NCBI GenBank assembly: GCA_027021785.1
Contig: JALUTR010000154.1
Location: 1 to 47,847, forward strand
Length of the DNA: 47,847 nt
From: Fidelibacterota bacterium
Lineage (GTDB): Bacteria > Fidelibacterota > Marinisomatia > Marinisomatales > JAADGP01
Reading direction: 5' to 3'
The translations under genes and the position numbers were made by a program. The notes beneath the pieces are model-generated. The model worked only from the letters and a program-made list of their open reading frames with translations. It was not told where the DNA came from and made no database searches. Below are positions 21,072-40,492 of the stretch, piece by piece. Numbering within the stretch: the stretch's first letter is position 1; every line of letters begins with the position of its first letter.

Positions 21072-24000
21072 ATGGAAAAATTGATTCAATTCGTTTTAAA
21101 AAGCCGGTTGCTTATGGTTGCCCTGGGGGTTCTGGTAATCGCCACCGGATACTACAGCTATACCAAGCTGCCGATCGATGCTTTCCCGGACGTTTCACCG
21201 TCACTGGTACAGGTATTTACCATAACGGAAGGTCTGGCTCCGGAAGAAGTGGAAAAATACGTAACCTATCCCGTGGAAGTGGCCATGAACGGCCTGCCCA
21301 ACCTGAAAAAAATCCGTTCCGTGTCCAACTTCGGACTATCGGTCGTTAATGTTTATTTTGAGGATGGAACCGATATTTATTTCGCGCGACAATTGGTAAA
21401 TGAACGAATTCAGGAAGCGCGGGATCAAATACCGGAGGGATTCGGTGAACCGGAAATGGGACCCATCTCAACAGGAATGGGATTGATCCTGTTCTACTAC
21501 CTTGATGACGAAACCGGACAGTACACCCTGGAGGAACTGCGCACAATCCAGGACTGGTTGGTGAAATTCCATCTTCAAACTGTTCCCGGCGTCACCGAGG
21601 TCCTTGGCATCGGAGGATACGAAAAACAATATCACGTCGTTCTGGACCCGTACGCGCTCCTGCGATATGATGTAACTGTCCAGGATGTCATCGAAACGAT
21701 CGAAGCCAACAACCTGAACGTCGGCGCCCAGTTCATTGAGAAAGACGCCGAGGAATTCATCGTTCGTTCAGTGGGATTGGCTTCACACATTGAGGACCTT
21801 GAAAATATTGTCATCAAATCGGACGACGGGACACCGATTTACCTGAAACAAATAGCGGAAGTCAAAATCGGGGGCGCCATTCGTCGGGGAATCGAGACCC
21901 GGAATGGAATCGGTGAAATCATTGCCGGGATGATCGTGAAACTGTACGGGACCAATTCATCGACCGTAATCGGACAGGTTGAAGAAAAAATGAAGGAAAT
22001 CAACAATATCCTCCCGGAGGGGATAAAATTGGTTCCTTATTACGAACAGAAGACCCTTGTGGAAGCATGTGTAAAAACGGTAACGGATGCTCTCCTGGAA
22101 GGGATTGTCCTGGTTATCATTATCCTGGTTGTGTTCCTGGGCGCTTTCAGGCCCAGTGTGGTTGTAGCCACGGCCATACCCTTTTCCGTATTATTTGCCA
22201 TTACCGGGATGAAATTTTTTGGCATATCGGCCAACCTGATGTCTTTCGGCGGACTGGCAATCGCGATCGGCATGATGGTTGACGGAAGTGTGGTAATCGT
22301 GGAAAATGTGGACCGCATGTTGCGCTCCGCCGATCGTTCCGAACCGCGTATTCATATTGTTGCCCGTGCTTGCAGCGAAGTAGTCCGACCGGTCATGTTT
22401 GCCATCGCCATCATCATAATCGTATTTCTGCCGCTCTTTACTTTACAGGGGGTGGAAGGGAAAACATTCCGGCCCCTGGCATATACCATCGCCTTAGCCA
22501 TGTTCGGTTCGCTCGTGTTTACCCTGCTTCTGGCGCCTGTGCTGTCGTCTTTTCTGATGCGCAAGCCAAAACAAAACACTTCCGGGACGGAGCATGAAGA
22601 TATCTGGATTTTGCGAACCCTCTTAAAACTATATCGTCCGGTGGTTACTTTCTTTGTTAAACGCCGTCAAAACGCCGTCATATTGGCGACCGCTCTGATA
22701 TTACTCGGGGCGGCGATATTCCCCCGGCTGGGATCGGAGTTTACGCCAACACTGGAAGAGGGGACGATGGTTGTTCGACTGACCATGGCTCCATCCATTT
22801 CTTTGAATGAAAGCAAACGCATTACTTTGACCGTCGAGCGGCGTTTAATGAAAATACCGGAAATTACGGGTGTGGTTACGCGGATCGGGCGCGGGGAAGT
22901 AGGGGCCCATACCGATCCGGTGAACAGCGCCGAAACGTATATTCTCTTAAAGCCAAAAGAGGAATGGCGTTCCGCTAAAAGCCAAAGTGAACTTGAGGCA
23001 ATTATCAGGGAAGAATTGGGAGAAATCCCGGGAGTATTGATGAATTTCACCCAACCGATTGCCATGACTGTCGATGAACTTCTGGAGGGCATTCGCGCCG
23101 AATTGGCAATTAAATTGTTCGGGGACGAACTGGACGTCTTAAAGAACAAAGCGGATGAAATCGCCGCCGTAATTAAACAAATTTCCGGAGCCGAGGACGT
23201 GCAGGTGGACCAGGTTTCCGGTACGCCACAGCTCCTTATTAAAATAGACCGGCATGCCATCGCCCGCTACGGTATTAACGTATCCGACGTACAGGAAGTA
23301 ATCCGGGCGGCCGTCGGTGGACAAACCGCGGGACAGATCTTTGAAGGCATCCGTCGTTTTGATATCCTGGTTCGGTTTGCGCCCGAATACCGGGCGACCA
23401 AAGACGCCATTAGTCAAATTCTGATCCAGGCTCCTACCGGAACCAAAGTTCCGTTGTCCCAGTTGGCGCAAATTGAAGAAATCGTCGGCCCGCGTCAAAT
23501 TACGCGCGAAAACAACCAACGCTTCATTACCATACAGTGCAACGTGTCCGGAAGGGATATCGGTTCTTTCGTGAAAGAAGGCCAGGCCGCAATCAAGGAG
23601 AAAGTCGACCTGCCGCCAGGTTATTTAGTCACCTGGGGCGGTCAATTCCGATTACAACAGGAGGCAAATAAACGACTTGCCGTGGTGATACCGATCACCT
23701 TGCTGGTAATTTTCATTCTCCTCTTTTCCAGCTTTAACTCATTGAAAAACACGCTTCTGATCCTGTTGAATATTCCCCTGGCGCTGGTGGGAGGAATCGT
23801 AGCCCTCTGGATAGGCGGCTTAAATCTCTCCGTTCCTTCTTCCGTCGGTTTCATCGCCCTTTTCGGAATCGCTCTTCTCAACGGGATTGTTCTTGTGACG
23901 TATTTGAATCAGCTCCTGCGGGAAGGATTGCCGATGGACGAAGCCTCCATTACCGGCGCTTGCCTCCGTTTAAGACCGGTATTAATGACCGCGCTGGCAG

Positions 24001-24170
24001 CGGCCCTGGGGATGATTCCGCTTCTTTTCTCCCAGGGGGTCGGAAGCGAAGTCCAACGTCCGTTGGCCACGGTAGTCGTGGGAGGATTGGTCACCTCCAC
24101 CATGCTTACTTTATTGGTGGTACCGGCGCTCTATAAATGGTTTGCCGTTGACCCGGAAATTGAAGCATAG
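21072..24170 (+). CDS. Heavy-metal efflux RND transporter (CzcA/CusA family)
   Basis: This 1032-residue inner membrane protein is a proton-driven HME-RND pump exporting metal cations from periplasm or cytoplasm. The N-terminal LPIDAFPDVSPSLVQV and the TYPVE box are HME signatures. Twelve membrane helices and two large periplasmic loops fit its length. The helix-4 charged relay is LAIAIGMMVDGSVVIVEN, with D404 and E411. The GxAIAIGxMVD text is closer to CusA-like monovalent pumps, but the following G-S resembles divalent pumps, so substrate is unresolved. It follows the adaptor by 40 bp and precedes the PII-like gene by 22 bp. Confidence 0.93.
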   Translation: MEKLIQFVLKSRLLMVALGVLVIATGYYSYTKLPIDAFPDVSPSLVQVFTITEGLAPEEVEKYVTYPVEVAMNGLPNLKKIRSVSNFGLSVVNVYFEDGTDIYFARQLVNERIQEARDQIPEGFGEPEMGPISTGMGLILFYYLDDETGQYTLEELRTIQDWLVKFHLQTVPGVTEVLGIGGYEKQYHVVLDPYALLRYDVTVQDVIETIEANNLNVGAQFIEKDAEEFIVRSVGLASHIEDLENIVIKSDDGTPIYLKQIAEVKIGGAIRRGIETRNGIGEIIAGMIVKLYGTNSSTVIGQVEEKMKEINNILPEGIKLVPYYEQKTLVEACVKTVTDALLEGIVLVIIILVVFLGAFRPSVVVATAIPFSVLFAITGMKFFGISANLMSFGGLAIAIGMMVDGSVVIVENVDRMLRSADRSEPRIHIVARACSEVVRPVMFAIAIIIIVFLPLFTLQGVEGKTFRPLAYTIALAMFGSLVFTLLLAPVLSSFLMRKPKQNTSGTEHEDIWILRTLLKLYRPVVTFFVKRRQNAVILATALILLGAAIFPRLGSEFTPTLEEGTMVVRLTMAPSISLNESKRITLTVERRLMKIPEITGVVTRIGRGEVGAHTDPVNSAETYILLKPKEEWRSAKSQSELEAIIREELGEIPGVLMNFTQPIAMTVDELLEGIRAELAIKLFGDELDVLKNKADEIAAVIKQISGAEDVQVDQVSGTPQLLIKIDRHAIARYGINVSDVQEVIRAAVGGQTAGQIFEGIRRFDILVRFAPEYRATKDAISQILIQAPTGTKVPLSQLAQIEEIVGPRQITRENNQRFITIQCNVSGRDIGSFVKEGQAAIKEKVDLPPGYLVTWGGQFRLQQEANKRLAVVIPITLLVIFILLFSSFNSLKNTLLILLNIPLALVGGIVALWIGGLNLSVPSSVGFIALFGIALLNGIVLVTYLNQLLREGLPMDEASITGACLRLRPVLMTALAAALGMIPLLFSQGVGSEVQRPLATVVVGGLVTSTMLTLLVVPALYKWFAVDPEIEA

Positions 24171-24192: not shown

Positions 24193-24534
24193 ATGAAACG
24201 CATCCAAGCATATATCAAACCTCATAAACTGTCCGAAGTGACACTGGCGCTCCACAAGATTGAGGGGTTGCCCGGAATGAGCGTCATTGACGCCCGCGGA
24301 TTCGGTCGCGGCCATAAACACCGTGCCCATCACCAAATAACGGAAGACGTTGTGGATTTCATACCCCACACCAAACTGGAATTGTTCTGTAATGATGCTT
24401 TGGTGGAAACAATCGTAGCCACGATCCAGGAGCATGCTCATACCGGACTCAAAGGCGACGGGAAAATTTATATTTCCCGGGTGGATGATGCCATTCGTAT
24501 CAGTACGGGAGAACGGGGAGAGGAAGCCGTTTAG
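24193..24534 (+). CDS. PII-like signal protein with His-rich T-loop
   Basis: This 113-residue protein is a clear PII/GlnB-fold member. It keeps KRIQAYIKPHKLSEV at the start, the B-loop TGLKGDGKIYIS and the closing ISTGERGEEAV that bind ATP/ADP. The T-loop (residues 36-61) is altered: the 2-oxoglutarate-binding Gln is Gly40 and the uridylylated Tyr of enteric PII is replaced by His. Four histidines lie close together (H41, H43, H46, H47). PII variants encoded beside heavy-metal efflux pumps are known (the PII-NG group). I infer a nucleotide-dependent or metal-binding regulator of the adjacent RND pump, not nitrogen control. Confidence 0.88.
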   Translation: MKRIQAYIKPHKLSEVTLALHKIEGLPGMSVIDARGFGRGHKHRAHHQITEDVVDFIPHTKLELFCNDALVETIVATIQEHAHTGLKGDGKIYISRVDDAIRISTGERGEEAV

Positions 24535-24876: not shown

Positions 24877-27234
24877 ATGAAATCCGAAAAAATCCTGCAC
24901 TTGGAAATTCCACTTTTGCTTCCCGATCTGGAGAATGATCAGGATCAATGTATTGAGCGACTGCTTGAACGGTTGGAAAACCGGCAAGGACTTGAAAAAG
25001 TGCATATCCATCGTGAAAACAGTAATGCGTTTCTCTGTCTCCATTATGATCCCCAGCTTATATCCTTAAACCAGGTCGAACGCTGGGCTGAAATCGAAGG
25101 AGCGGCCGTCACGGAACGATACCACCACGAAACCATGCGGATCACCAACATGGATTGCGGCGATTGTGCCGCCAGCATCGAACATATTCTTGCCCGGCAA
25201 AAGGGTGTTTTGGTCGTTTCCGTCAACTATGCCGCTGAAAGTATGCGGGTGGAGTTCGACAAAACGCTCATTACCAAAGAAGCAATCATAGAACTTGTCC
25301 GTTCCCTGGGATTCGAAGTGATGACGGAGGAACCCCGGAGTTGGATCCGGCAGAACTGGGAACTGGTGCTTGCCCTGCTTTCGGGTTTTTTCCTGCTCGT
25401 CGGTTTTATCGGTGAGAGGTTCCTCGGGCTCCCTCCGTGGTCCGCTATTTCCCTCTATGTACTGGCCTATCTTACCGGCGGCTTTGATGCCACCCTGCAC
25501 GGGGTTAAAGCAGCGCGGCATTTACGTTTCGACATCGACTTTCTCATGGTCGTAGCCGCTATCGGGGCGGCCGTTTTGGGCGAGTGGGCTGAAGGCGCGC
25601 TGCTCCTCTTCCTTTTCAGCATCGGTCATTCCATGGAACATTACGCTATGGGCCGGGCACGAAACGCCATCCGGGCGCTGGGAAAAATCACACCCAAGAC
25701 GGCCAAGGTCAGGCGCGATGGACAGGTAATCGAGGTCCCGGTAAAGGAATTAATCCGCGGAGACCTTGTTATCGTGCGCCCGGGAGAACGAATTCCGATC
25801 GACGGTGAGGTGATCGAGGGACAATCGATGGTGGATCAGAGTCCCATCACCGGTGAAAGCATCCCGGTGGAAAAGGGAGTGGACGACCCGGTCTTTGCCG
25901 GGACCGTAAATGGCGACGGGGCCTTGGAGATTAAAGTTACCAAACTGGCCGGCGATACCACACTGGCCCGCGTGATCCAGATGGTTGAGGAGGCGCAAAC
26001 ACAGAAATCACGCACGCAACAACTTACCGACCGGTTCGAACGGATTTTTGTGCCGGTGGTCCTGATCAGTGTAATATTGGTTATTATCATCCCACCTTTA
26101 ACCGGTCTGCTGGATTTCGGTGACGCCTTTCTCCGCGCCATGACGATGTTGGTCGCCGCGTCTCCCTGCGCCCTGGCGATCGCGACCCCGGCGACGATCC
26201 TCGCCGGAATAGCCCAATCCGCCCGCAAGGGCGTTCTGGTCAAAGGCGGAATCCACCTGGAAAACCTGGGGCGCCTGGATGCCATTGCGTTTGACAAAAC
26301 AGGAACAATCACTTCCGGCAAACCGGAAGTGACGGATATCGTTCCCCTGAACGGAACGGACGAAACCGAGTTAATCCGCATCGCCGCCGCCATGGAAAGT
26401 CTTTCGGGTCATCCCCTGGCCAAGGCCGTGATTTCGTTGGCCCGCGAACGCGACATAACCCTGCCGGAAATCGAAAACCTGCAATCCGTCACCGGAAGAG
26501 GTATTGTTGGATTGTTAAACGGGGAAAAAGTAAGCGTCGGTAATCTTAAACTGTTCGAAGAAGAGGAATCCTTTGCCGTATCCGAGCAAGTGAAGCGCCA
26601 GGTAACCGACCTGGAAGCCGCCGGCAAAACCACCATGCTGGTAATGATGAACGGGAAATTTCTCGGAATTCTGGGACTGGCTGATCGACCACGCCCGGAA
26701 ACCAAAGCGACCCTATCGAAGCTCCGGAAACTGGGGATTAATAAAACAATCATGATTACCGGCGATAATGAGCGCGTGGCGGCGGCCATTGCTCAAGAAG
26801 TGGCGCTTAGCGAATACTACGCCAATTTGCTGCCCGATGATAAAGTTACCGCTATTCGCGAACTGATCGGAAAATACGGCGCGGTTGCCATGGTGGGGGA
26901 TGGAGTCAATGACGCGCCGGCGATGGCTACCTCGACGGTCGGGATTGCCATGGGCAGCGCCGGCACCGATGTGGCGCTCGAAACGGCCGACGTGGCGCTT
27001 ATGGCGGACGATTTGTCCAAGCTGCCGTTTGCCGTGGCTCTCAGTCGGCAGGCCCGCCGGATCATTCGGCAAAATCTGGTCGTTTCACTGGGCGTTATCG
27101 CCATCCTGCTACCCTCAGCTTTACTGGGTTTGGCGGGAATCGGAGTGGCAATCGTTTTTCACGAAGGAAGCACACTAATTGTCGTGGCCAATGCTCTTCG
27201 TTTGTTACGGTTCGACACCGGGAACAGGCAATGA
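24877..27234 (+). CDS. P1B-type metal-transporting ATPase with N-terminal HMA domain
   Basis: This 785-residue heavy-metal ATPase pumps cations across the inner membrane. The first 80 residues look like a degenerate metal-binding fold without CxxC. A second HMA domain follows with C94-GD-C97 in [10 protein letters not shown]. The transmembrane metal site is SPC (S429-P430-C431), the phosphorylated Asp is D473 in [13 protein letters not shown] is present, and helix 8 carries HEGST (H762). SPC plus HEGST is the P1B-4 signature (cobalt, iron or zinc export), yet P1B-4 pumps usually lack an HMA domain. It starts an operon with the parvulin lipoprotein 12 bp downstream. Confidence 0.93.
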
Positions 27235-27246
27235 CAGCCGTGAATC

Positions 27247-29202
27247 ATGGACTCCGTAATCAGGGATCATAGTTTAACTAAGCGTCCAACGAAGAAGCCG
27301 GTAATCCCGGCCCCGTTCGCATCTCCATATCTTATAATATTCCTGCTGTTGTCCGGACTTCTTTTCGTCGGTTGTGGCAGTAAGCAGAAAACACCTCCCA
27401 ACTCCAACATCGTAGCCACCTATGACGACAGTGAAATTACTATCGAAGACCTGGAACGCTACTTTGAAGAACGCACCAAAGGGTTAAAAATACCGGTCGG
27501 TGATTCATTGGTCTCCCTCTCGGATCAACTTCCCAAAGATAAGGAAACTTATCGCGGTCTTATCCGGGAAATGGTTCTGGACGAAATGGTTAAACGGAAG
27601 ATCAAAGAAAAACAATTGGACAATCGCGGCAATATTCGTCATGCCCTGGAACATATGGAGGATGAACTCACCCTGCAACAATTGCACGCGGAGATGCATG
27701 AACAGAATCGAATCCCCGTAGGTGAAAATGAAATTCGACAATATTACGATGAAAACCGCAGCCGTTTCGGTGATGAACCGCTGTACAAAGTGCGGGACGA
27801 GATCAAAAACATCCTCGTTTCTCAAAAGGAGGACGAATATGTAACCGGTTATATCAACGAACTAATGGATGCCGCTACTATTACCAGGAATTACGACCTC
27901 CTGCGTGTGCCGGAACCAACCGAACAGGAACTGCTGGCAGCCTACGAACAAAACAAGGAAAATTACCTCGAACCGGAGAAATGGGTGATCGATTTTATCG
28001 AAGTCGCCGATTCCGGCGCCACGGCCCGGACTTCCGCCCAGAAAGCCTGGAACCGTCTCGGTTCCGGTGCAAGTTTCGAATCGGTGGCTGCAACTTTCGG
28101 CCGGGATAAAACCTTCATCAGCACAGATTATATTGTCGGAACGCGCGGGGAAACGTTTGATCGGGCTGTAACCTCCCTAAACCCCGGAGAATTCAGCAAA
28201 CCCATTGAGGAAAACGGTAAATATTTTATTGTGCGACTGAATAAGAAACTCCCGGCGTCTTACGTCCCCTTCGATGACGCGCGGAGTTTGATTCGACGCC
28301 TCTTAATGGATGAACGCGAAAAACAACTTTACGAAGAAAACAAAAACAAAACCCTGTTCACCATGCATGGTCGCCGCTATACATTGGGTGATTTTTACCA
28401 GGAATTCATGGAACTACCATACGCCGATCGGGAAAGACTGCGTACCTACGAAGAGCGGGTTAAATTCGTGGACCGTATGATTGACCGCTTGTTGCTCCTG
28501 GAAGATTCTTACGACCGGATGCTTAACGCCCGGAAAAAGGAAGAAATCGAACACGTACGAGAGGATGTTTTAAAGCAGGTTTTGCACCGCGAGGAAGTGG
28601 ATCAGATGTTGAATGTGAACGAGGAAGATGCAAGGCAGGTGTACGAGGAAAACAAGGAATTGTTCAAAACCCCGGCCCGCGTGAAAATCAGTATTATTGT
28701 TGTGCGCGGTGGCGAAGATGACAACAGCAACCGGAAAGCCAAGGAAAAAATAGACGAGGTTTATGATAAACTCCGCCCCGGTTTCTTTCGAAAAAAGATG
28801 TCTTTTGAAGAGGCGGCCCGACAGTATTCCGAAGATCCGGCCACAGCGCAAAACGGCGGTGAAGTGGACGCCTGGATCAGCGAAACCAATAACCCTTTGT
28901 ACGAACTTTTCAATCACTCATTTCATGAAAATTTCATTGCCTTGAAACCGGGGGAAATCACCGAGCCTTTTACTATCGGTAACGAATATATCATTGTAAA
29001 AGTTCGTGAGCGGCAGGAACCGCAACAACAGTCTTTTGAAGCGATTAAGGAGCATCTTATGGAAGACCTCCGCTTACAAAAACATGAAGAATTGACGGTT
29101 AAAATGTATACCGAAATGATCGACCGGGCCAATCTTGTGATTTACGATCCGGTCCTGGAAAGCATGATCAATAAACAGGAAAAGGGAGATAATATGCAAT
29201 GA
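27247..29202 (+). CDS. Lipoprotein with two parvulin-type peptidyl-prolyl isomerase domains
   Basis: This 651-residue protein has an unusually long N-region, then a lipobox (LLFVGC) with acylated Cys43. It resembles SurA/PrsA-type periplasmic folding factors: an N-terminal helical SurA-like chaperone domain, then two parvulin-like domains. The first (about residues 240-340) includes SLNPGEFSKPIEENGKYFIV; the second (about 470-600) includes RQYSEDPATAQNGGEVDAWI and ALKPGEITEPF. It would fold envelope proteins, anchored to a membrane. It follows the ATPase by 12 bp and its stop overlaps the CDF::HflK start as ATGA, so the chaperone is tied to this metal/HflKC operon. Confidence 0.88.
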   Translation: MDSVIRDHSLTKRPTKKPVIPAPFASPYLIIFLLLSGLLFVGCGSKQKTPPNSNIVATYDDSEITIEDLERYFEERTKGLKIPVGDSLVSLSDQLPKDKETYRGLIREMVLDEMVKRKIKEKQLDNRGNIRHALEHMEDELTLQQLHAEMHEQNRIPVGENEIRQYYDENRSRFGDEPLYKVRDEIKNILVSQKEDEYVTGYINELMDAATITRNYDLLRVPEPTEQELLAAYEQNKENYLEPEKWVIDFIEVADSGATARTSAQKAWNRLGSGASFESVAATFGRDKTFISTDYIVGTRGETFDRAVTSLNPGEFSKPIEENGKYFIVRLNKKLPASYVPFDDARSLIRRLLMDEREKQLYEENKNKTLFTMHGRRYTLGDFYQEFMELPYADRERLRTYEERVKFVDRMIDRLLLLEDSYDRMLNARKKEEIEHVREDVLKQVLHREEVDQMLNVNEEDARQVYEENKELFKTPARVKISIIVVRGGEDDNSNRKAKEKIDEVYDKLRPGFFRKKMSFEEAARQYSEDPATAQNGGEVDAWISETNNPLYELFNHSFHENFIALKPGEITEPFTIGNEYIIVKVRERQEPQQQSFEAIKEHLMEDLRLQKHEELTVKMYTEMIDRANLVIYDPVLESMINKQEKGDNMQ

Positions 29203-30758
29203 ACCGTAAAGAAAAAGCTGTTCTGGTGGCCATGACGGCCAACTTATTGCTGATTGGTTTGAAATTCTTCCTGGCTTCACTTTCCGGTAGTGTAGCCTTA
29301 AAGGCTTCGGCATGGCATTCATTTTCGGACCTTATTCCTTCCCTGGTGGTCCTGGCAGGGCTGATCCTGGCCCGAAAGGAGAATACCGAAGCGACGCTGG
29401 GCATCAGCCGCATCGAAAACATTATCGCCATTATCGTATCCGGTTTTATTTTTTTTGTCGGCGTTGAAATCATCAGGGATGCCCTTTCCCGCAACGTCAT
29501 AGAGTTAAGTAATGTCCCCCTGGTGGCTGTGGTCTCGTTGTTATCAATTGCCATTACCTACTTCATGGCACGTTACCAGATTTTTGTGGGACGCGAAACC
29601 AACTCCCCGGGACTCATTGCCAACGGTACCCACGCCCGCGTCGACATGTACAGTTCGATTGTGGTAGTGGTGGCATTGGCGGGATACATCATGGGTTTCA
29701 CTTCGTTGGACCGGATTGCCGCGGTCATTATTGTTTTATTGATTTTGGGCAACGGCCTGGAAGTGCTTACCAGCGCTATTAAGGCTCTGCGGAAGGGAGG
29801 GTTCCTCGATTTCACTTTCTTTCACAAGGAAACGATCCTTCCCCGGCATGTACGCCGCCTGCTGCCCCGCATTTCGATAGCCGGTGTTTTTCTGGTGATC
29901 ATCATTTATTTCGGATCCGGAATATATTCCGTGGCCTGGAACGAAGAGGGAATTGTAAAACGTTTCGGGAAACCGGTTCGCCAGGTATCGGCCGGACTTC
30001 ACTATCGATTGCCCTGGCCTTTTGAAGCGGTGGATTATGTTCAGGTTTCGGATGTCCGTAAAGAGAAAATACCTTCCTCCCTCATGCTCACTGGCGACGA
30101 GAACCTCATTGAAATCGAAGCGGCAGTCCACTACCGTGTCGAGGATGCCTTTGCCTTTAGGTATAACCTGTCCGACTCCCGGGCCTTGATTCGAAACGTG
30201 GTGGAATCAACCCTGCGTCAACAGATTAATAAAAATAAAATTGATTTCGTCCTCACCAAAGGGAAAGAGTTAATACAGCAACAGGCCCAGCGCGCTTCTC
30301 AGGCGATATTAAACGAGCAGGAAACCGGGGTTCGGATTCTAAATGTTCAATTAATCCGTGCCGTCCCGCCCCAAAACGTAATGGAAGCCTTCCGCGACGT
30401 GGCCAGCGCCCGTGAGGACAAAAACACTTACATAAATGAAGCCCTGGCATACAAATCCGAAATAGTTCCCAAAACCCGTGGTGAGGCTCAAAAAATGATC
30501 GAGGAAGCTCTTTCCTACCGGGACAAAAAAATCCGGACTGCCTCCGGCGATGCCCGGCGCTTTCTCTCCAAACTAAGCGCCTATGAAAAGAGCCGTGATA
30601 TCACCGAAAAACGTCTATACCTTGAGACCATGGAAAAAGTATTGACCAATGTTGATAAAATTGTCCTTGACGAAAACATAGACGTCGATAATACGGAATT
30701 GTGGTTTTGGGGAAACGGTCTCAACGAATCACTGATTAAGGAGGTAAAGAAACCATGA
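29199..30758 (+). CDS. Fusion of a CDF metal transporter membrane domain with an HflK-like band-7 domain
   Basis: Residues 1-197 of this 519-residue protein are a cation diffusion facilitator membrane domain with six helices. The metal-site pairs are intact: H40-xxx-D44 in helix 2 (AWHSFSD) and H145-xxx-D149 in helix 5 (GTHARVD). The usual cytoplasmic CDF C-terminal domain is missing. After a basic linker of about 25 residues, a seventh helix (about 225-243) leads into a band-7/SPFH domain of HflK type, with GIVKRFGKPV, GLHYRLPWPFEAVD and AFRDVASAREDK. The topology works: CDF ends in the cytoplasm, and the extra helix puts band 7 in the periplasm as in HflK. ATGA overlaps join it to both neighbours. 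Confidence 0.9.
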   Translation: MNRKEKAVLVAMTANLLLIGLKFFLASLSGSVALKASAWHSFSDLIPSLVVLAGLILARKENTEATLGISRIENIIAIIVSGFIFFVGVEIIRDALSRNVIELSNVPLVAVVSLLSIAITYFMARYQIFVGRETNSPGLIANGTHARVDMYSSIVVVVALAGYIMGFTSLDRIAAVIIVLLILGNGLEVLTSAIKALRKGGFLDFTFFHKETILPRHVRRLLPRISIAGVFLVIIIYFGSGIYSVAWNEEGIVKRFGKPVRQVSAGLHYRLPWPFEAVDYVQVSDVRKEKIPSSLMLTGDENLIEIEAAVHYRVEDAFAFRYNLSDSRALIRNVVESTLRQQINKNKIDFVLTKGKELIQQQAQRASQAILNEQETGVRILNVQLIRAVPPQNVMEAFRDVASAREDKNTYINEALAYKSEIVPKTRGEAQKMIEEALSYRDKKIRTASGDARRFLSKLSAYEKSRDITEKRLYLETMEKVLTNVDKIVLDENIDVDNTELWFWGNGLNESLIKEVKKP

Positions 30759-31636
30759 AAACTCGAGTGACAATTCTTTCCGTCGTGGCTGTTTTTATTG
30801 CCGTTATTCTTTATTCCATGCTGTTTACCGTTGATCAAACCGAGTACGTGGTGGTTACTCAGTTTGGTCGTCCGGTCCGGGCAGTTTTCAAACCGGGATT
30901 GAACTGGAAATTGCCGGCGCCGATTCAACACGTCCAACGCTACGATAACCGTCTGAAGGTCTATACACCGCGGATAGCGGAGTTTCTCACCAAGGATAAA
31001 AAAAATATCATGGTGGAAAGTTTTGTTACCTGGCGGATTCAGGATCCGATCGTTTATATGAAAACACTGAAAACCTTTACCAACGCTCAGGAGCGACTGA
31101 ATGATGTCGTATTTTCCGAATTGGGTGTCTATCTTGGACGTTACGACCTTGATAACCTGGTAAACGTGGTTGAGGACAGTCTGGAATTACCGAAGATGAT
31201 GACCCAGGTACAGAGAATCGCAGACGATAAATTGAAGGATTACGGCATCCGGTTAACCGATGTTCGGGTTAAGGTCCTCAATTTTCCCGAGAAAAATAAA
31301 CAGAGTGTTTTCCAGCGCATGCGGGCTGAACGCGAAAAAATGGCCCGGCTGTATCGCTCCGAAGGAACCGAGGAATCTTCCAAGATTCGCGCTTTGGCGG
31401 AGAAAGAAAAAACCATGCTTCTATCCGAAGCTTACGAAAAAGCGGAAATCATTAAAGGTGAAGGCGACGCCCAGGCCATTAAAATCTATGCCGACGCCTT
31501 TCAAAAAGACCCCCAATTTTATGATTTTATTCGCTCGCTGCAGGCCTATGAAAAGCTCATCGATGAAAAAACAACGTTGGTTCTGCCGGCGGATGCGGAA
31601 TTGCTGAAGTATTTGCGAAACGCAAAACGGAAATAG
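30755..31636 (+). CDS. hflC: HflC-like SPFH/band-7 protein
   Basis: This 293-residue protein has one N-terminal membrane helix (VTILSVVAVFIAVILYSMLF) and a periplasmic band-7 domain. Landmarks are EYVVVTQFGRPVRAVFKPGL, LNWKLPAPIQHVQRYDNR, RIQDPIVYMKT and the coiled-coil RSEGTEESSKIRALAEKE, all HflC-typical. HflK and HflC form a large cage that surrounds and restrains the FtsH protease in E. coli. No ftsH gene lies in this window. It overlaps the CDF::HflK stop as ATGA and precedes a second hflK by 13 bp. Confidence 0.92.
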   Translation: MKTRVTILSVVAVFIAVILYSMLFTVDQTEYVVVTQFGRPVRAVFKPGLNWKLPAPIQHVQRYDNRLKVYTPRIAEFLTKDKKNIMVESFVTWRIQDPIVYMKTLKTFTNAQERLNDVVFSELGVYLGRYDLDNLVNVVEDSLELPKMMTQVQRIADDKLKDYGIRLTDVRVKVLNFPEKNKQSVFQRMRAEREKMARLYRSEGTEESSKIRALAEKEKTMLLSEAYEKAEIIKGEGDAQAIKIYADAFQKDPQFYDFIRSLQAYEKLIDEKTTLVLPADAELLKYLRNAKRK

Positions 31637-31649
31637 CGGGAGACACGAA

Positions 31650-32783
31650 ATGGAAGGCAGCCAAACAAAACAACCAACCGGAAGAAAACGGTTTTGGAAC
31701 AAAACCGGCCTGGAAAAAATCCGGCAGAAACTTAAGTCCCTGTTACAACTTTCGGTCAGGGGTCTCCGAACGGCATACTCGAAGATCCAAATCTTTCTCA
31801 ACCATTTGCGGGGCGTTGTAGGAATTAAGGATGATCTTCATAAGGCCTTCGGACACTTACGTTGGCGCCGCGTAATGGCGCTTATCACGCTGGTTTTGCT
31901 ACTTCTCTATTTTTCGTCCGGGTTTTATATGGTTAATCCGGGGGAAGAGGCGGTTGAACGGTTATTCGGCCGTGTTGTGACCGAAGGAATTACCGAAGGG
32001 TTGCATTATCGTCTTCCCCGGCCTTTTCAGCAGGTGGACAAGGTTAATGTATCGGAGATACATCGTGAAGGTATCGGGTTGCTTTTACCGGAGCACACCG
32101 GGGTACACTCTTCTCCGAAGAAAATTCAGATTTTAACCGGGGATGAAAATATAATCGACGTACAACTGGTAATCCAGTACCGCATCAGCGACCCGGCCAA
32201 ATATTTATTCAACATCGACTATCGGCCATACCAGATAATTAATGAAGTTACCCGTTACGCCGTAACCCGGATAGGCAGCAATATGTTGGTTGACGAGATG
32301 CTCACTATTGCCAAGGAAGAAATACAGCGCCGGGTACAAGCCGAAACTCAGATGTTATTGGATTCGTACCGGAGCGGACTTTCCATCGTGAATGTAAATA
32401 TCAAGAAAATGTACCCACCCGATGAGGTCGCCGACGCCTTCCGTGATGTAGCCAGCGCCCGTGAGGACAAATCGCGCGCAATCAATAATGCCCAGGGGTA
32501 CCGAAACAGTCTGCTTCCGCCTGCCAAAGGTGAGGCCGCGCGGTTAATTCGCCAGGCTGAAGGGTACAAAGCCGAAGTCATCAACCGAGCCCGGGGTGAA
32601 ACCGACCGGTTCCTGCAAATGCTGGCGGAATATCAAAAGACCGGTGGCAACACATCCTCGGATGTCACCCGTGAACGGCTGTACCTGGAAACGATGGAAA
32701 AAATCTTCCCTAAATTGAAGAAATATATCCTGAATTCGGAGAATAAAGGCAAAGTCAACTTACGCTTTTTTAACAAACGATAA
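31650..32783 (+). CDS. hflK: HflK-like SPFH/band-7 protein (free-standing)
   Basis: This 377-residue protein has a basic cytoplasmic N-extension of about 75 residues, one membrane helix (VMALITLVLLLLYFSSGFY), and a periplasmic band-7 domain of HflK type: GEEAVERLFGRVV, GLHYRLPRPFQQVDKV, ILTGDENIIDVQLVIQYRI and DAFRDVASAREDK. Its band-7 part resembles that of the CDF fusion upstream, so the operon has two HflK-type proteins around one HflC. The N-extension is coiled-coil or amphipathic in look, with no CDF helices. It is the last gene of the ATPase-led operon. Confidence 0.9.
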   Translation: MEGSQTKQPTGRKRFWNKTGLEKIRQKLKSLLQLSVRGLRTAYSKIQIFLNHLRGVVGIKDDLHKAFGHLRWRRVMALITLVLLLLYFSSGFYMVNPGEEAVERLFGRVVTEGITEGLHYRLPRPFQQVDKVNVSEIHREGIGLLLPEHTGVHSSPKKIQILTGDENIIDVQLVIQYRISDPAKYLFNIDYRPYQIINEVTRYAVTRIGSNMLVDEMLTIAKEEIQRRVQAETQMLLDSYRSGLSIVNVNIKKMYPPDEVADAFRDVASAREDKSRAINNAQGYRNSLLPPAKGEAARLIRQAEGYKAEVINRARGETDRFLQMLAEYQKTGGNTSSDVTRERLYLETMEKIFPKLKKYILNSENKGKVNLRFFNKR

Positions 32784-33425: not shown

Positions 33426-33785
33426 ATGCCTGAAACCGGTATGTGTGCCTGCGAAACTGTCTATGTCGACAAGGAAAAAGTGCAGGCAGTTCAAGATAAC
33501 ATATCCCCCGACGAAACCTTACATGTGCTTGCGAATACGTTCAAACTCCTGGGAGAGCCAACCCGTCTGAAAATCCTGCTGGCCCTTTCAATAGAAGAAT
33601 TATGCGTCTGCGACATCGCGTCACTTTTGGGCATTACCCGGTCCGCCATCTCACACCAGTTACGACTGCTGAAAAATTCACGCCTGGTCAAATTTCGCCG
33701 GGCCGGCAAGATGGTGTACTATTCACTTGATGATCAACATGTGAAACACCTCCTGCGAGACGGACTGGAGCATTTACGTGATTGA
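33426..33785 (+). CDS. CadC-like ArsR/SmtB metal-sensing repressor
   Basis: This 119-residue winged-helix repressor has the ArsR signature LLGEPTRLKILLAL and the ISHQLRLLKNSRLV recognition helix. Metal ligands match Staphylococcus CadC closely. An N-terminal pair (C7, C9) and the ELCVCD motif (C60, C62) form the alpha-3N thiolate site for Cd/Pb. The alpha-5 site D103, H105, H116, D119 corresponds to the zinc site of SmtB/CadC, with the last Glu replaced by Asp. It should derepress in Cd, Pb or Zn excess. A matching operator lies upstream, and the Lol-like transport cluster follows about 190 bp later, a likely target. Confidence 0.92.
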   Translation: MPETGMCACETVYVDKEKVQAVQDNISPDETLHVLANTFKLLGEPTRLKILLALSIEELCVCDIASLLGITRSAISHQLRLLKNSRLVKFRRAGKMVYYSLDDQHVKHLLRDGLEHLRD

Positions 33786-33971
33786 TTCCGCATCAGGCAT
33801 TACCCGGCCGTTCCCCCCGGACAGGTTCGGCAACCCTTATGCCGCAAGCGGCACAATGAAGGATAAGATTTGGTGGAAATATTTTCAGATGAAATAGTAC
33901 GACGACCATCCCCGGTTGTCGAAAAAACAGTTACGACATTACCAACCGTGAAGTTTAACCGGAGTACTGAA

Positions 33972-34724
33972 ATGAAAAAAAGTTACCTGTTTCTATCCTG
34001 GTTAATGGTATTTCTGATAATCGCCCCCGCCTGGTCCCAGTCTCCAAAGGAGATCGTCCGCAAAGCCAACGATTTGCTACGCGGCGAAAGCAGCGTTTCC
34101 GAGGGTACTCTGACGGTTGTCAAACCCACCTGGACGCGTCAAATTTCGACCAAAATGTGGATGCTGGAGCCGGACTATGCCCTGATCCTGGTTACCGCGC
34201 CGGCCAAGGAAAAGGGCACGGTGACCCTGAAGCGCAAAAACGAACTCTGGAACTGGATCCCGGCCGTTCGGCGGGTAATCAAGATTCCACCTTCAATGAT
34301 GCTGCAACCCTGGATGGGGTCCGACTTCAGCAACGACGACCTGGTGCGGCAGTCTTCGATTGTGGATGATTACGAACATAAACTGACGGGGGAAGAGGAA
34401 ATCGGGGGCTACAGTTGTTACAAAATCGAGTTGACACCCAAACCCGAAGCGGGGGTGGTGTGGGGAAAAATCATTATGTGGGTATCCAAACAGGGTTATT
34501 TTGAATTAAAAACCGATTTTTATGATGAAGACGGCACCTTGATCAAAACCCTGATCGGCAGCGAAATAAAAACGATGGGCGGCCGCACACTCCCCACCCA
34601 CTGGGAAATGATTGCCGTAAACAAACCGGGGCACAAAACCGTGTTGGATTACCGCTCGATCAAGTTCAACGTGCCGCTTGAGCCTTCTTTTTTCTCATTG
34701 CAAAACATGAAACGCGTACGGTAG
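33972..34724 (+). CDS. LolA-like outer membrane lipoprotein-sorting family protein
   Basis: This 251-residue protein starts with a signal peptide (MKKSYLFLSWLMVFLIIAPAW). The mature part shows the single-domain LolA/LolB-like half-barrel pattern annotated as outer membrane lipoprotein-sorting protein. Landmarks are LTVVKPTWTRQISTKMWM, the MGSDFSNDDLV segment typical of this subgroup, and KQGYFELKTDFYDEDG. I chose the ATG at 33972; upstream codons lack a signal peptide layout. It sits 15 bp before two FtsX-type permeases, so it may be the periplasmic carrier of a LolCDE-like transporter. It follows the CadC-like repressor, suggesting metal-dependent control. Confidence 0.85.
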   Translation: MKKSYLFLSWLMVFLIIAPAWSQSPKEIVRKANDLLRGESSVSEGTLTVVKPTWTRQISTKMWMLEPDYALILVTAPAKEKGTVTLKRKNELWNWIPAVRRVIKIPPSMMLQPWMGSDFSNDDLVRQSSIVDDYEHKLTGEEEIGGYSCYKIELTPKPEAGVVWGKIIMWVSKQGYFELKTDFYDEDGTLIKTLIGSEIKTMGGRTLPTHWEMIAVNKPGHKTVLDYRSIKFNVPLEPSFFSLQNMKRVR

Positions 34725-34739
34725 AGAGGAAACGGGACC

Positions 34740-35954
34740 ATGTATCTGACTTTAAGCTGGCGCAATCTGTGGCGTAACAAAAAGCGGACGCTGATTGCCG
34801 CCGCTTCCGTGTTTCTGGCCGTATTGGTGGCCGTGGTCATGCGTTCAATGCAAATCGGATCTTACGCTTACATGATCAGTTCGTCGGTAAAATTTTACAC
34901 CGGCTACATGCAGGTACAGGGAAACGGCTACTGGGAAAACCGGTCACTGAACAACAGCATTACGCTGAGCGAAAAACAGCGGGCGGAGATCGCTCAAATT
35001 CCCCACGTCACTTCGGTCGTGCCCCGGTTGGAGGCGTTTTCGCTGGTCTCCTTCGGGAGGGTGACCAAAGTCGCGCAGGTAACCGGTGTTGATCCGGCGA
35101 CGGAAAACAACATGACCGAATTGAAGAAAAGACTGGTACAGGGACGTTACCTGACGGAAAGTCCCGGGGGTGTTCTGATCGCCCAGGGGTTGGCCGATTT
35201 GCTGCACGTCAGCGTAGGTGACAGTGTCGTGCTCTACGGACAGGGCTATCACGGCGTCATCGCCGCGGCGATGCTGCCGGTGGCCGGCATTGTCAAGTTT
35301 CCGATTGCGCGGATGAACAACACGATGGTTTTCCTGACGCTGACCAACGCCCAGGATATCTATTCAACGGATGGTCGAATTACCTCGCTGGCCGTCATGC
35401 TGGACGATGTCCGGAACCAAACCGATGTTTTTAACGCTTTACGTTCCCTGGTGTGCGACCGCTATACCCTCATGACCTGGGAAGAAATGATGCCTGATCT
35501 GGTCCAGGGGATTGCCCTGGATAACGCCAGCGGATTAATCATGCTGATCATTCTTTACCTCGTCATCGCTTTCGGTGTTTTCGGAACCGTTATGATGATG
35601 ACCACGGAGCGCGCCAAGGAGTTCGGCGTTTTAATTTCGGTGGGAATGAAAAGAAAACGCCTCATCTGGGTCACCACCCTGGAAACTATCTTCCTGGCTT
35701 TTTTGGGGGCGGTCTCCGGCGCCGTGGTCAGCCTGGCGGTAATCACCTATTTCCATTATCACCCGATTCCCATTACCGGCAGCGCGGCATCGATGTTTGA
35801 GTTGCTGGGTGTGCGACCGATTTTCTATTTCAGCACCGATCCGGGTCTGCTCATTAACCAGGCCCTCGTCGTTTTGTTAATCACGTTGGCAACGGCTTTG
35901 TATCCCCTTTTCTTTATTAAAAGGCTACAACCGGTGCAGGCCATGCACGGTTAA
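34740..35954 (+). CDS. FtsX/LolCE-like ABC transporter permease (first copy)
   Basis: This 404-residue inner membrane protein has the MacB-PCD/FtsX architecture: an N-terminal helix after LTLSWRNLWRNKKRT, a large periplasmic domain (about residues 45-265), and three C-terminal helices. MMMTTERAKEFGVLISVGMK is the FtsX coupling-helix signature. It resembles LolC/LolE and other permeases of the type VII ABC group, which mechanically extract lipoproteins or drive periplasmic work without pumping through the membrane. It pairs with the next permease (15-bp gap) and the LolD-like ATPase. Function in this cluster is inferred. Confidence 0.9.
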   Translation: MYLTLSWRNLWRNKKRTLIAAASVFLAVLVAVVMRSMQIGSYAYMISSSVKFYTGYMQVQGNGYWENRSLNNSITLSEKQRAEIAQIPHVTSVVPRLEAFSLVSFGRVTKVAQVTGVDPATENNMTELKKRLVQGRYLTESPGGVLIAQGLADLLHVSVGDSVVLYGQGYHGVIAAAMLPVAGIVKFPIARMNNTMVFLTLTNAQDIYSTDGRITSLAVMLDDVRNQTDVFNALRSLVCDRYTLMTWEEMMPDLVQGIALDNASGLIMLIILYLVIAFGVFGTVMMMTTERAKEFGVLISVGMKRKRLIWVTTLETIFLAFLGAVSGAVVSLAVITYFHYHPIPITGSAASMFELLGVRPIFYFSTDPGLLINQALVVLLITLATALYPLFFIKRLQPVQAMHG

Positions 35955-35969
35955 TCAAGGAATAATCAG

Positions 35970-37187
35970 ATGATACTATCACTCGCCTGGAAAAATATCT
36001 GGAGAAATAAGAAACGCAGTCTCATCATCATTGTTGCCACGGCTCTGGGGTTGTGGGGGAGCCTCTTGTCCGGCGCAATCTGGATGGGTTGGGGAGAGTC
36101 GATGGTCGACACGGCCATCAGCCGTGACTTAGCGCATATCCAGATTCACAAGCCCGGGTACGCGCAGAATAAGGAAATCATAAATTACATTCCCGACGGA
36201 TTTCAAATTCTGAAAGAGACACAGAACCTGCCGGGCATCGCGGCCGTTTCCGGGCGCACACTGGTTGAAGGCATGGCCGCTTCCCCCACCTCGACCTTCG
36301 GTGTCAAGATCGTTGGTATTGTTCCCGCACAGGCCAAAACCGTAACGGACATTTATAAGCGTCTCATCGAAGGCGAATATTTCCCTGACGGCGGAGGGCG
36401 GAACCCGGTTGTTATCGGCCGCAAACTGGCCGACCGGCTGGGTTTGAAGCTGCACTCCAAAATCGTTCTGAGTTTTCAGGACCTGGATGGTTCGCTTAAT
36501 TATGCGGCCGGTAAAATTGTGGGAATTTACAAGACGGAATCCTCGCTGTTTGACCAATCGAATGTTTTTATGCGGCAGGCCGATCTGTTCCGTCTTTTGA
36601 ACACGAAGCCGCTCATCCACGAAATCGCCATCCGGGCCGAGTCCGCACGGATCATGCCCCAGGTGTATGCCGCGGTGAAAGCAAATTATCCGCAACTGGC
36701 CGTACACTCCTGGAAAGAACTGGCGCCGGAAGTCGCCTATACTTCCGCCGCAATGGAGGCTTTCACCTATATATTTATCGGCATCATCCTGTTCGCGCTG
36801 CTGTTCGGGATCACGAACACCATGTTGATGGCGGTAATCGAACGCTTCCGTGAGCTGGGAGTGCTGATCGCCGTGGGGATGAAAAAGGGACGGGTTTTTA
36901 CCATGATCCTGCTGGAGACGATTCTGCTGTCCATCACCGGTGGGGTGGCGGGAATCGTAATCGGCGCTATTTCCATTGTCTATCTTGCTCACGCGGGAAT
37001 CGATCTTACCGCACTTGCTTCCGGCATGGAAACTTTTGGCGCGAGCACTGTGCTCCGTCCCTTTCTGCCGCTGGATATGTATATCGCCCTGCCGATCATG
37101 ATCGTAATAACCGCCTCCCTTTCGGCCGTGTTACCGGCCTGGAAAGTCATTCACATTCAACCGTCCGAGGCAATCAGGACGTATTAG
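35970..37187 (+). CDS. FtsX/LolCE-like ABC transporter permease (second copy)
   Basis: This 405-residue protein has the same layout as its neighbour. It starts ILSLAWKNIWRNKKRS with helix 1, has a periplasmic domain of about 220 residues, and then three helices containing VIERFRELGVLIAVGMKKG. The C-terminal PAWKVIHIQPSEAIRTY is typical of LolC/E and MacB-like permeases. The two permeases probably form a heterodimer, as LolC and LolE do. The 129 bp after it, before the ATPase gene, contain no gene. Confidence 0.9.
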   Translation: MILSLAWKNIWRNKKRSLIIIVATALGLWGSLLSGAIWMGWGESMVDTAISRDLAHIQIHKPGYAQNKEIINYIPDGFQILKETQNLPGIAAVSGRTLVEGMAASPTSTFGVKIVGIVPAQAKTVTDIYKRLIEGEYFPDGGGRNPVVIGRKLADRLGLKLHSKIVLSFQDLDGSLNYAAGKIVGIYKTESSLFDQSNVFMRQADLFRLLNTKPLIHEIAIRAESARIMPQVYAAVKANYPQLAVHSWKELAPEVAYTSAAMEAFTYIFIGIILFALLFGITNTMLMAVIERFRELGVLIAVGMKKGRVFTMILLETILLSITGGVAGIVIGAISIVYLAHAGIDLTALASGMETFGASTVLRPFLPLDMYIALPIMIVITASLSAVLPAWKVIHIQPSEAIRTY

Positions 37188-37316
37188 GAAAATGTCGATG
37201 TATTACGCAAAGGCAAATTCACTGTTTGTGGGGAAGTTAAATGAATCAGCCTCGATTCCGACAAACCGGATGCGCGGAAAACACAAATATTGTTCTACAA
37301 TTCGGAGAATACCAAA

Positions 37317-38024
37317 ATGTCATTGATTGAACTTCACGATCTCTGCAAAACCTACAACACGGCCGCCGTTCCGGTACGGGCCGTCAGGAATGTAAGTCTG
37401 CAAATTGAAAAACAGGAATTCACCGCCATCGTCGGTCCTTCCGGTTCCGGTAAGACGACCCTCCTGAACCTCATCGGCGGGCTGGATAAACCGACCGGCG
37501 GCAGCATATTTGTCGAAGGGAAAGATATCGCGACCCTGAAGGCCAATGATCTGATTGATTTCCGGTTGCACCATATCGGTTTTGTCTTCCAGGCCTACAA
37601 TTTAATTCCGGTTTTTACGGCCAAAGAGAACGTGGAATTCATTATGTTGTTGCAGGGTGTTTCCAAGGCAAAAAGAGAACAACGGGCGCTGGAATTACTG
37701 GAATCGGTCGGATTGGGTGATAGGGTGAACAGCTTTCCGACGCAATTATCCGGCGGTCAACAGCAACGGGTGGCGGTGGCGCGCGCGCTGGCGTCGCGCC
37801 CATCCTTCGTACTGGCCGATGAGCCAACCGCCAACCTGGATTCCCATACGGCTGGAGCCCTGCTGGACATGATGGCGCAACTAAACCGGGAATTCGAAAT
37901 GACGTTTATTTTTTCCACGCACGATCCGCGCGTCATCAAACGCGCCCACCGCGTGGTCACCCTGGAAGACGGCGCCGTTAAGTCCGATATCAGGCAAAAT
38001 GAAGCCGCGGAAGGAACGGAATGA
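37317..38024 (+). CDS. LolD-like ABC transporter ATP-binding protein
   Basis: This 235-residue ATPase has Walker A GPSGSGKTTLL, the signature LSGGQQQRVAVARAL and Walker B FVLADEPTANLD, with the H-loop FSTHDPRV. It matches the LolD/MacB-type subfamily that energises FtsX-type permeases. I chose the ATG at 37317, after a GGAGA ribosome binding site; an earlier ATG adds nine unrelated residues. It is separated from the permeases by 129 bp and overlaps the next gene's start as ATGA. Confidence 0.93.
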   Translation: MSLIELHDLCKTYNTAAVPVRAVRNVSLQIEKQEFTAIVGPSGSGKTTLLNLIGGLDKPTGGSIFVEGKDIATLKANDLIDFRLHHIGFVFQAYNLIPVFTAKENVEFIMLLQGVSKAKREQRALELLESVGLGDRVNSFPTQLSGGQQQRVAVARALASRPSFVLADEPTANLDSHTAGALLDMMAQLNREFEMTFIFSTHDPRVIKRAHRVVTLEDGAVKSDIRQNEAAEGTE

Positions 38025-40177: not shown

Positions 40178-40492
40178 AAAGATTTATTCGGGGAATATGT
40201 TTGAATGCGACAAAAAAATTCTAATTGCCATCGAACATTGATCAATCCCGCTGTACTTCGTTACGGGGTTGTTCGTTGTTCCTTGTTGGATATTCGGGGA
40301 ACCGATGCGTAATGGAGTGGCCGAGTAATCTTTCAATTTGGGGGAAGATGTTTGTACGACATGTTTATTACCCTTTCTGAAGGGATACACTGATTGATTT
40401 TGACTGGTTTTAATAGAAGATTATTCCGCGGATCGCATGGGGATCGGTCCCCGGTTTGATCTTTGGATAACAAACAAGGTGAAAGAAAGAAA
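40178..40492. other. Intergenic region before the second ATPase
   Basis: I see no gene, operator matching TGAACA-N2-TGTTCA, or strong hairpin in these 315 bp. An AAGGTGA ribosome binding site at 40477-40483 serves the ATPase gene. Confidence 0.5.

Follow-up and report, generated by a model that had tools for sequence, protein, structure and literature searches.

Can a metal transporter be built covalently into a subunit of an HflK/C-type membrane scaffold, and what would such a protein do? The question is raised by a gene in a 47,847-nucleotide stretch of DNA from a Fidelibacterota bacterium (contig JALUTR010000154.1 of assembly GCA_027021785.1), which we call the window throughout. In this gene, a single reading frame joins a cation diffusion facilitator (CDF) domain to an HflK-type SPFH domain. 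A first-pass annotation, made from the DNA letters alone, had described this arrangement and interpreted it as a cation exporter placed in an HflKC-type cage, possibly coupled to FtsH. We find that the CDF-HflK fusion is real and is not an assembly artefact.

Architecture and distribution of the CDF-HflK fusion

The fusion gene lies at 29199-30758 on the forward strand, as do the window genes from the RND pump to the ArsR repressor described below, and is a single uninterrupted frame of 519 codons. Profiles of both families match its translation. Pfam Cation_efflux (PF01545) covers residues 9-197 (114.3 bits, E 8e-33; cut-off 26.6) and Band_7 (PF01145) covers residues 248-415 (80.5 bits, E 2e-22); the NCBIfam models for CDF (TIGR01297, residues 5-197) and HflK (TIGR01933, residues 242-493) score 128.2 and 241.9 bits against curated cut-offs of 82.4 and 159.4, respectively. 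The CDF transmembrane domain (residues 1-197; 29199-29789) contains six helices by hydropathy and the metal site H40/D44/H145/D149, just as the first-pass annotation had read it. The usual cytoplasmic C-terminal domain (CTD) of CDF proteins is absent from the fusion. In its place we found a basic, fast-evolving linker (residues 198-224; 29790-29870), a seventh transmembrane helix (residues 225-243; 29871-29927; hydropathy centre at residue 234) and a full HflK-type SPFH domain with C-terminal helices (residues 242-493; 29922-30677), so profiles and hydropathy bear out this part of the annotation as well. The cytoplasmic domain is usual but not strictly defining for the family, and CTD-less CDFs have been recognised (PMC6465983).

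The loop preceding helix 7 has a net charge of +6. Because helix 7 comes after this positive loop, the SPFH domain is expected to lie in the periplasm, as in HflK. The predicted topology is therefore consistent, as had been argued from the added helix: the six CDF helices end in the cytoplasm, helix 7 crosses outwards, leaving the SPFH domain on the periplasmic side. A monomeric AlphaFold2 model made from a 10-row alignment places a helix at residues 214-239 followed by SPFH strands, and its secondary structure agrees with the hydropathy. The confidence of this model is moderate (mean pLDDT 62, pTM 0.35), with pLDDT values of ~80-93 in the SPFH domain, ~60 in the CDF half and <50 in the linker. 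Foldseek aligned the model with HflK (7vhq; E 6e-18, 36% identity) and with the CDF protein YiiP (8f6k; 203 columns, root-mean-square deviation 4.2, E 2e-6).

Searches of genomes and plasmids revealed 12 distinct fusion loci including the window, distributed over five phyla (four phylum samples and an alphaproteobacterial plasmid). Full-length fusions are present in G088, which carries a Marinimicrobia label and belongs to the same order as the window genome (its contig, L037, is counted once in the module tallies), and in two metagenome-assembled genomes (MAGs) labelled Deferribacteres (L036) and Poribacteria (L040). A MAG labelled Deltaproteobacteria (L038) has a fusion with frame breaks on a contig with a coverage of 1.4. 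One fusion each was found in G602 (L085) and G526 (L086), and two each in G679 (L083 and L084) and G727 (L117, and L087, which the contig end truncates). The remaining locus, L042, is on a finished 166-kb conjugative plasmid of the cultured strain Aquibium oceanicum B7; its fusion (BSQ44_RS25395) is 42% identical across 98% of the protein and is annotated merely as "HflK". Independent assemblies, this finished plasmid among them, show the same junction, and a mis-join is thereby excluded. The distribution of the fusion is low-frequency and patchy, with 2 of 245 genomes in the window's own phylum, 3 of 395, 2 of 82 and 2 of 85 genomes in the three other phylum samples, and 1 of 72,556 plasmids at an 80% coverage threshold. 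The remaining CDF matches in the phylum searches were mostly ordinary CDFs without an SPFH domain. We also sought a pre-fusion state beside the best HflK-only matches (in G003 and G016; 46-48% identical) and found no separate CDF there.

Common descent and the conserved gene module

In a tree with 21 ordinary CDFs, the 12 CDF halves formed one clade (96/90). Of ten HflK halves tested, nine likewise fell into one clade (100/99), and the tenth, L086, was placed on a long unresolved branch; a single origin of all tested halves was not rejected in an approximately unbiased (AU) test (p 0.41). The fusion HflK halves and the unfused HflK2 proteins of the same module are sister groups (92/89, not starred) in a tree whose canonical HflK proteins were sampled mainly from the window's own order. 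This sisterhood suggests that HflK was duplicated inside the module before or around the time of fusion. Compared with its nearest relatives, the window protein is 85% identical in the CDF half (dN ~0.09), 67% in the SPFH region (dN ~0.22) and 38% in the linker, dS being saturated in this comparison. Judged from these sequence comparisons, purifying selection acts on both the CDF and the SPFH halves, and the transport domain, having the highest identity and the lowest dN, is the most constrained part of the fusion. In the 99% complete window genome, the fusion is the sole CDF-family protein. By eye, the nearest ordinary CDFs (L063-L074, L081 and L082; ~390-430 residues) have a NifX/dinitrogenase-cofactor-like region after the cytoplasmic domain.

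The fusion is part of a conserved gene set. Its stop is overlapped by the start codon of a gene for HflC (293 residues; 30755-31636; TIGR01932, 221.9 bits), which is followed by a gene for unfused HflK2 (377 residues; 31650-32783), assigned by profile (TIGR01933, 228.9 bits) and tree and bearing a cytoplasmic N-terminal extension of ~70 residues. Wherever the sequence 3' of the fusion is readable (11 loci), HflC comes directly next, its frame being broken in two in L117, and HflK2 follows HflC in all nine loci with sequence that far. On the 5' side, the start of the fusion overlaps (ATGA) the stop of a gene for a parvulin-type peptidylprolyl isomerase (PPIase; 651 residues; 27247-29202; Rotamase_2) with a lipoprotein-type signal (lipobox-like LLFVGC), so start/stop overlaps run through the chain of PPIase, fusion and HflC. 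The window, G088, L036, L038, L083, L084, L087 and L117 have this PPIase gene 5' of the fusion. In L042 and L085 it comes after HflK2, in the genome of L040 it is ~10 kb upstream, and in L086 it does not adjoin the fusion. A P1B metal ATPase with an N-terminal HMA domain and an SPC motif (785 residues; 24877-27234) is encoded upstream in the window; G088 and L036 likewise have a P1B ATPase upstream, and L042 has one downstream.

With its own HflC and HflK2, the module lends support to the HflKC-type cage proposed in the first-pass annotation. The proposed coupling to FtsH, on the other hand, found no direct support: none of the modules examined contains an FtsH gene, the only FtsH of the window genome is encoded on a different contig, and contig C145 holds a canonical hflK-hflC pair apart from the module.

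Further metal-related genes surround the module in the window. Upstream are an inner-membrane pump of the RND metal-efflux type (CusA/CzcA-like; 21072-24170), whose family was assigned by eye from the sequence and not by a profile search, and, between this pump and the ATPase, a PII-type protein (24193-24534; PF00543). Downstream is an ArsR/SmtB repressor (33426-33785). The genes 3' of the repressor (33870-38024) encode a LolA-like protein, two FtsX-type permeases and one further product, probably an envelope export set; the LolA/FtsX order is kept in G001, a genome of the same genus, and in G088 up to its contig end. A second P1B-type ATPase, with neither an N-terminal HMA domain nor a CPC or SPC motif, is located at 40463-42388.

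Metal, mechanism and competing explanations

The HD-HD site (HDHD) is present in 10 of the 12 fusions, window included, and is a Zn-selective signature among CDFs (PMC6465983). The ATPases of the window, G088 and L036 carry SPC, and the Aquibium ATPase carries CPC together with a His-rich stretch. In the window, L037 and L087, the ArsR protein has N-terminal cysteines (CxC in the window), an ELCVCD motif and a C-terminal DxH...H..E pattern, which we take to be the paired CadC-like sites, one for Cd/Pb and one for Zn. Based on the HD-HD sites, the ATPase motifs and the CadC-like ArsR, our best guess is that Zn/Cd is the metal handled by the module.

We favour, with confidence that is evenly balanced, the explanation that the fusion is the Zn/Cd-type exporter subunit in a dedicated SPFH assembly that is induced by metal. 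A CDF exporter would have lost its cytoplasmic domain, with helix 7 and an HflK domain in the periplasm gained in its place, and its CDF half would carry Zn(II), or a divalent ion like it such as Cd or Co, out of the cytosol into the periplasm. The HflK domain, as its gene linkage suggests, may join the HflC and HflK2 of the module in building a ring or cage of the HflKC kind. Such an SPFH assembly could supply dimer or oligomer contacts and arrange the transporter, clustering the exporter in one membrane patch next to the P1B ATPase and the PPIase, a predicted lipoprotein that would be located in the periplasm, on the same side as the SPFH domain. A wider proposal, to which we lend somewhat less credence, is that of a mobile metal-homeostasis machine in which the CDF is a covalent subunit of a three-part SPFH cage (CDF-HflK, HflC and HflK2) accompanied by the PPIase and the P1B ATPase; natural variants of it would have shifted from HD-HD to Cys/His/Met sites.

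Several observations weigh against the exporter explanation. Confidence in the structure model is low across the CDF half and the linker. In Pseudomonas aeruginosa, the cluster PA2434-PA2439, encoding HmtA (a reported importer), three HflK/HflC-family SPFH proteins and further products, is switched on when zinc is depleted and not when it is in excess, and has a weak Zur site nearby (PMC4542158, PMC11761036). The sites of L085 (HGHH) and L117 (MNHH) have lost HD-HD with the architecture retained, implying that Zn transport is dispensable in some lineages. In G001, HflK, HflC and HflK2 are missing behind a CDF fragment. Finally, a Nitratireductor rhodophyticola plasmid with Aquibium-like surroundings keeps the PPIase and the ATPase and lacks the SPFH triad, implying that the triad was gained or lost as a block. 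The G001 fragment and this plasmid together imply that parts of the module are separable.

The syntenic contig of G001 ends within the CDF, and over the final 46 residues of this CDF the identity to the window is 87%. This fragment (L047:8455-8592; G001:C44) stops after helix 6, at the fusion point (ALRSMP*), with the same ArsR gene as in the window ~0.8 kb away, and a homologous PPIase was not found in the G001 genome. As every other relative carries the fusion, the simplest reading is secondary loss, and the fragment, with its 5' part unassembled, is possibly a decaying remnant. Two separate genes in close relatives, in the absence of related fusions, had been named in the first-pass annotation as a sign against a genuine fusion; related fusions exist, and the sister species, G001, lacks two such genes. 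In the Nitratireductor plasmid (L091:11743-16152), the PPIase frame seems to be joined to the start of a histidine kinase gene.

L085 and L117 form a clade (100/99) and come from two different phyla. Their TM5 motifs are HCRIH and HCRLH, and their residues in TM2 are H-G and M-N, respectively; the Cys, His and Met residues that these sites retain hint at a softer metal, Cu(I) for instance. Their shared remodelling suggests a change of metal rather than decay, the L085 fusion (L085:3500-5038) being remodelled like that of L117 from another phylum. The L117 fusion (L117:3761-6217; G727:C793) comprises 818 residues, of which ~290 are an N-terminal addition with several hydrophobic helices and no Pfam match. 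The PPIase of the L117 module has a Cys/His-rich insert, and a 445-residue thiol-type membrane protein is encoded upstream.

The alternative that survives best, although we consider it unlikely, is that the CDF half binds metal within the membrane and is mainly a sensor or regulator, a metal-responsive switch for the SPFH cage that would change the access of FtsH to its substrates, and not a bulk exporter. In Escherichia coli, the HflK/C chamber encloses FtsH and the SPFH domains of HflK contact it (PMC12048511); the module PPIase hints at protein quality control, and L085 and L117 retain the architecture despite an altered metal site. However, the modules examined have no FtsH of their own, and the window genome offers only a single housekeeping FtsH alongside its canonical hflKC pair. 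Moreover, conservation in the main clade is strong across the HD-HD site and the entire CDF half, and the company of metal ATPase and RND genes fits export.

Next comes loose tethering, in which a self-sufficient CTD-less CDF would be merely co-localised or stabilised and the SPFH domain would have no mechanistic effect on transport. We regard this as rather unlikely: the fusion, HflC and HflK2 are kept as a block across very long distances, even though stand-alone CTD-less CDFs exist (PMC6465983), the CDF of the sister species ends directly after helix 6 and the linker sequence is variable. It is improbable that the module serves metal allocation or acquisition under zinc shortage, bringing metal into the envelope or retaining it there with no role in resistance. 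The zinc-depletion response of PA2434-PA2439 would fit such a role, whereas the CadC-like ArsR gene that accompanies the module in the window and two other loci fits induction by metal excess. An assembly chimera or frame error uniting two separate genes, conceivable in a fragmented draft of 446 contigs, is refuted by the recurrence of the junction, as well as by selection on both halves, and retains next to no probability.

Significance and relation to known systems

What SPFH cages contain and what they are for is an open question, and the structures of HflK/C-FtsH leave other clients unclear. With a transporter covalently in the HflK subunit, one client is fixed genetically and its stoichiometry is set, which makes the microdomain idea directly testable through metal-tolerance assays. 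We found no report of a CDF-HflK or CDF-SPFH fusion in the open-licence PubMed Central (PMC) literature, although the architecture may be listed automatically elsewhere. Under the wider proposal of a mobile machine, the module would be, as far as could be searched, the first case of a transporter built into an SPFH cage. The fusion is built of known parts inside a module for which no description was found in the same literature, and it looks like an undescribed metal-handling machine, patchy in occurrence, carried once on a conjugative plasmid and hidden behind the label "HflK".

Among known systems, PA2434-PA2439 is the nearest cluster described and may be a distant relative of the fusion module, within which PA2439 might encode a fusion. 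Like the module, it has three HflK/HflC-type SPFH genes beside a P1B ATPase, and the gene order in strain PAO1 resembles that in Aquibium; it differs in its induction by zinc depletion, and a CDF domain is not reported for the cluster in the papers cited above. The PaFlo5-7 operon of strain PA14, with three SPFH genes, has been described as horizontally acquired (PMC13086221) and is probably the same cluster, matched by gene content and not by sequence. HflK of the E. coli FtsH-HflK-HflC complex, in which it modulates FtsH, resembles the fusion in its whole-domain TIGR01933 match and its HflC gene neighbour. In contrast to E. coli HflK, the fusion adds an N-terminal CDF, has a second HflK in its operon and belongs to a module that is not associated with hfq/hflX or an FtsH gene. 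CTD-less CDFs, reported from marine and soil bacteria (PMC6465983), share the missing cytoplasmic domain; they occur as stand-alone proteins, whereas the fusion has a scaffold domain instead. With CDF exporters (YiiP/FieF with DD-HD and ZnT-type proteins with HD-HD sites), which work as dimeric metal/proton antiporters, the fusion has in common the six-helix domain and the HxxxD pairs in TM2 and TM5. Unlike these exporters, it has no cytoplasmic C-terminal domain and runs on into helix 7 and a predicted periplasmic SPFH domain, a natural case in which the regulatory cytoplasmic domain of a CDF is swapped for an oligomerising scaffold.

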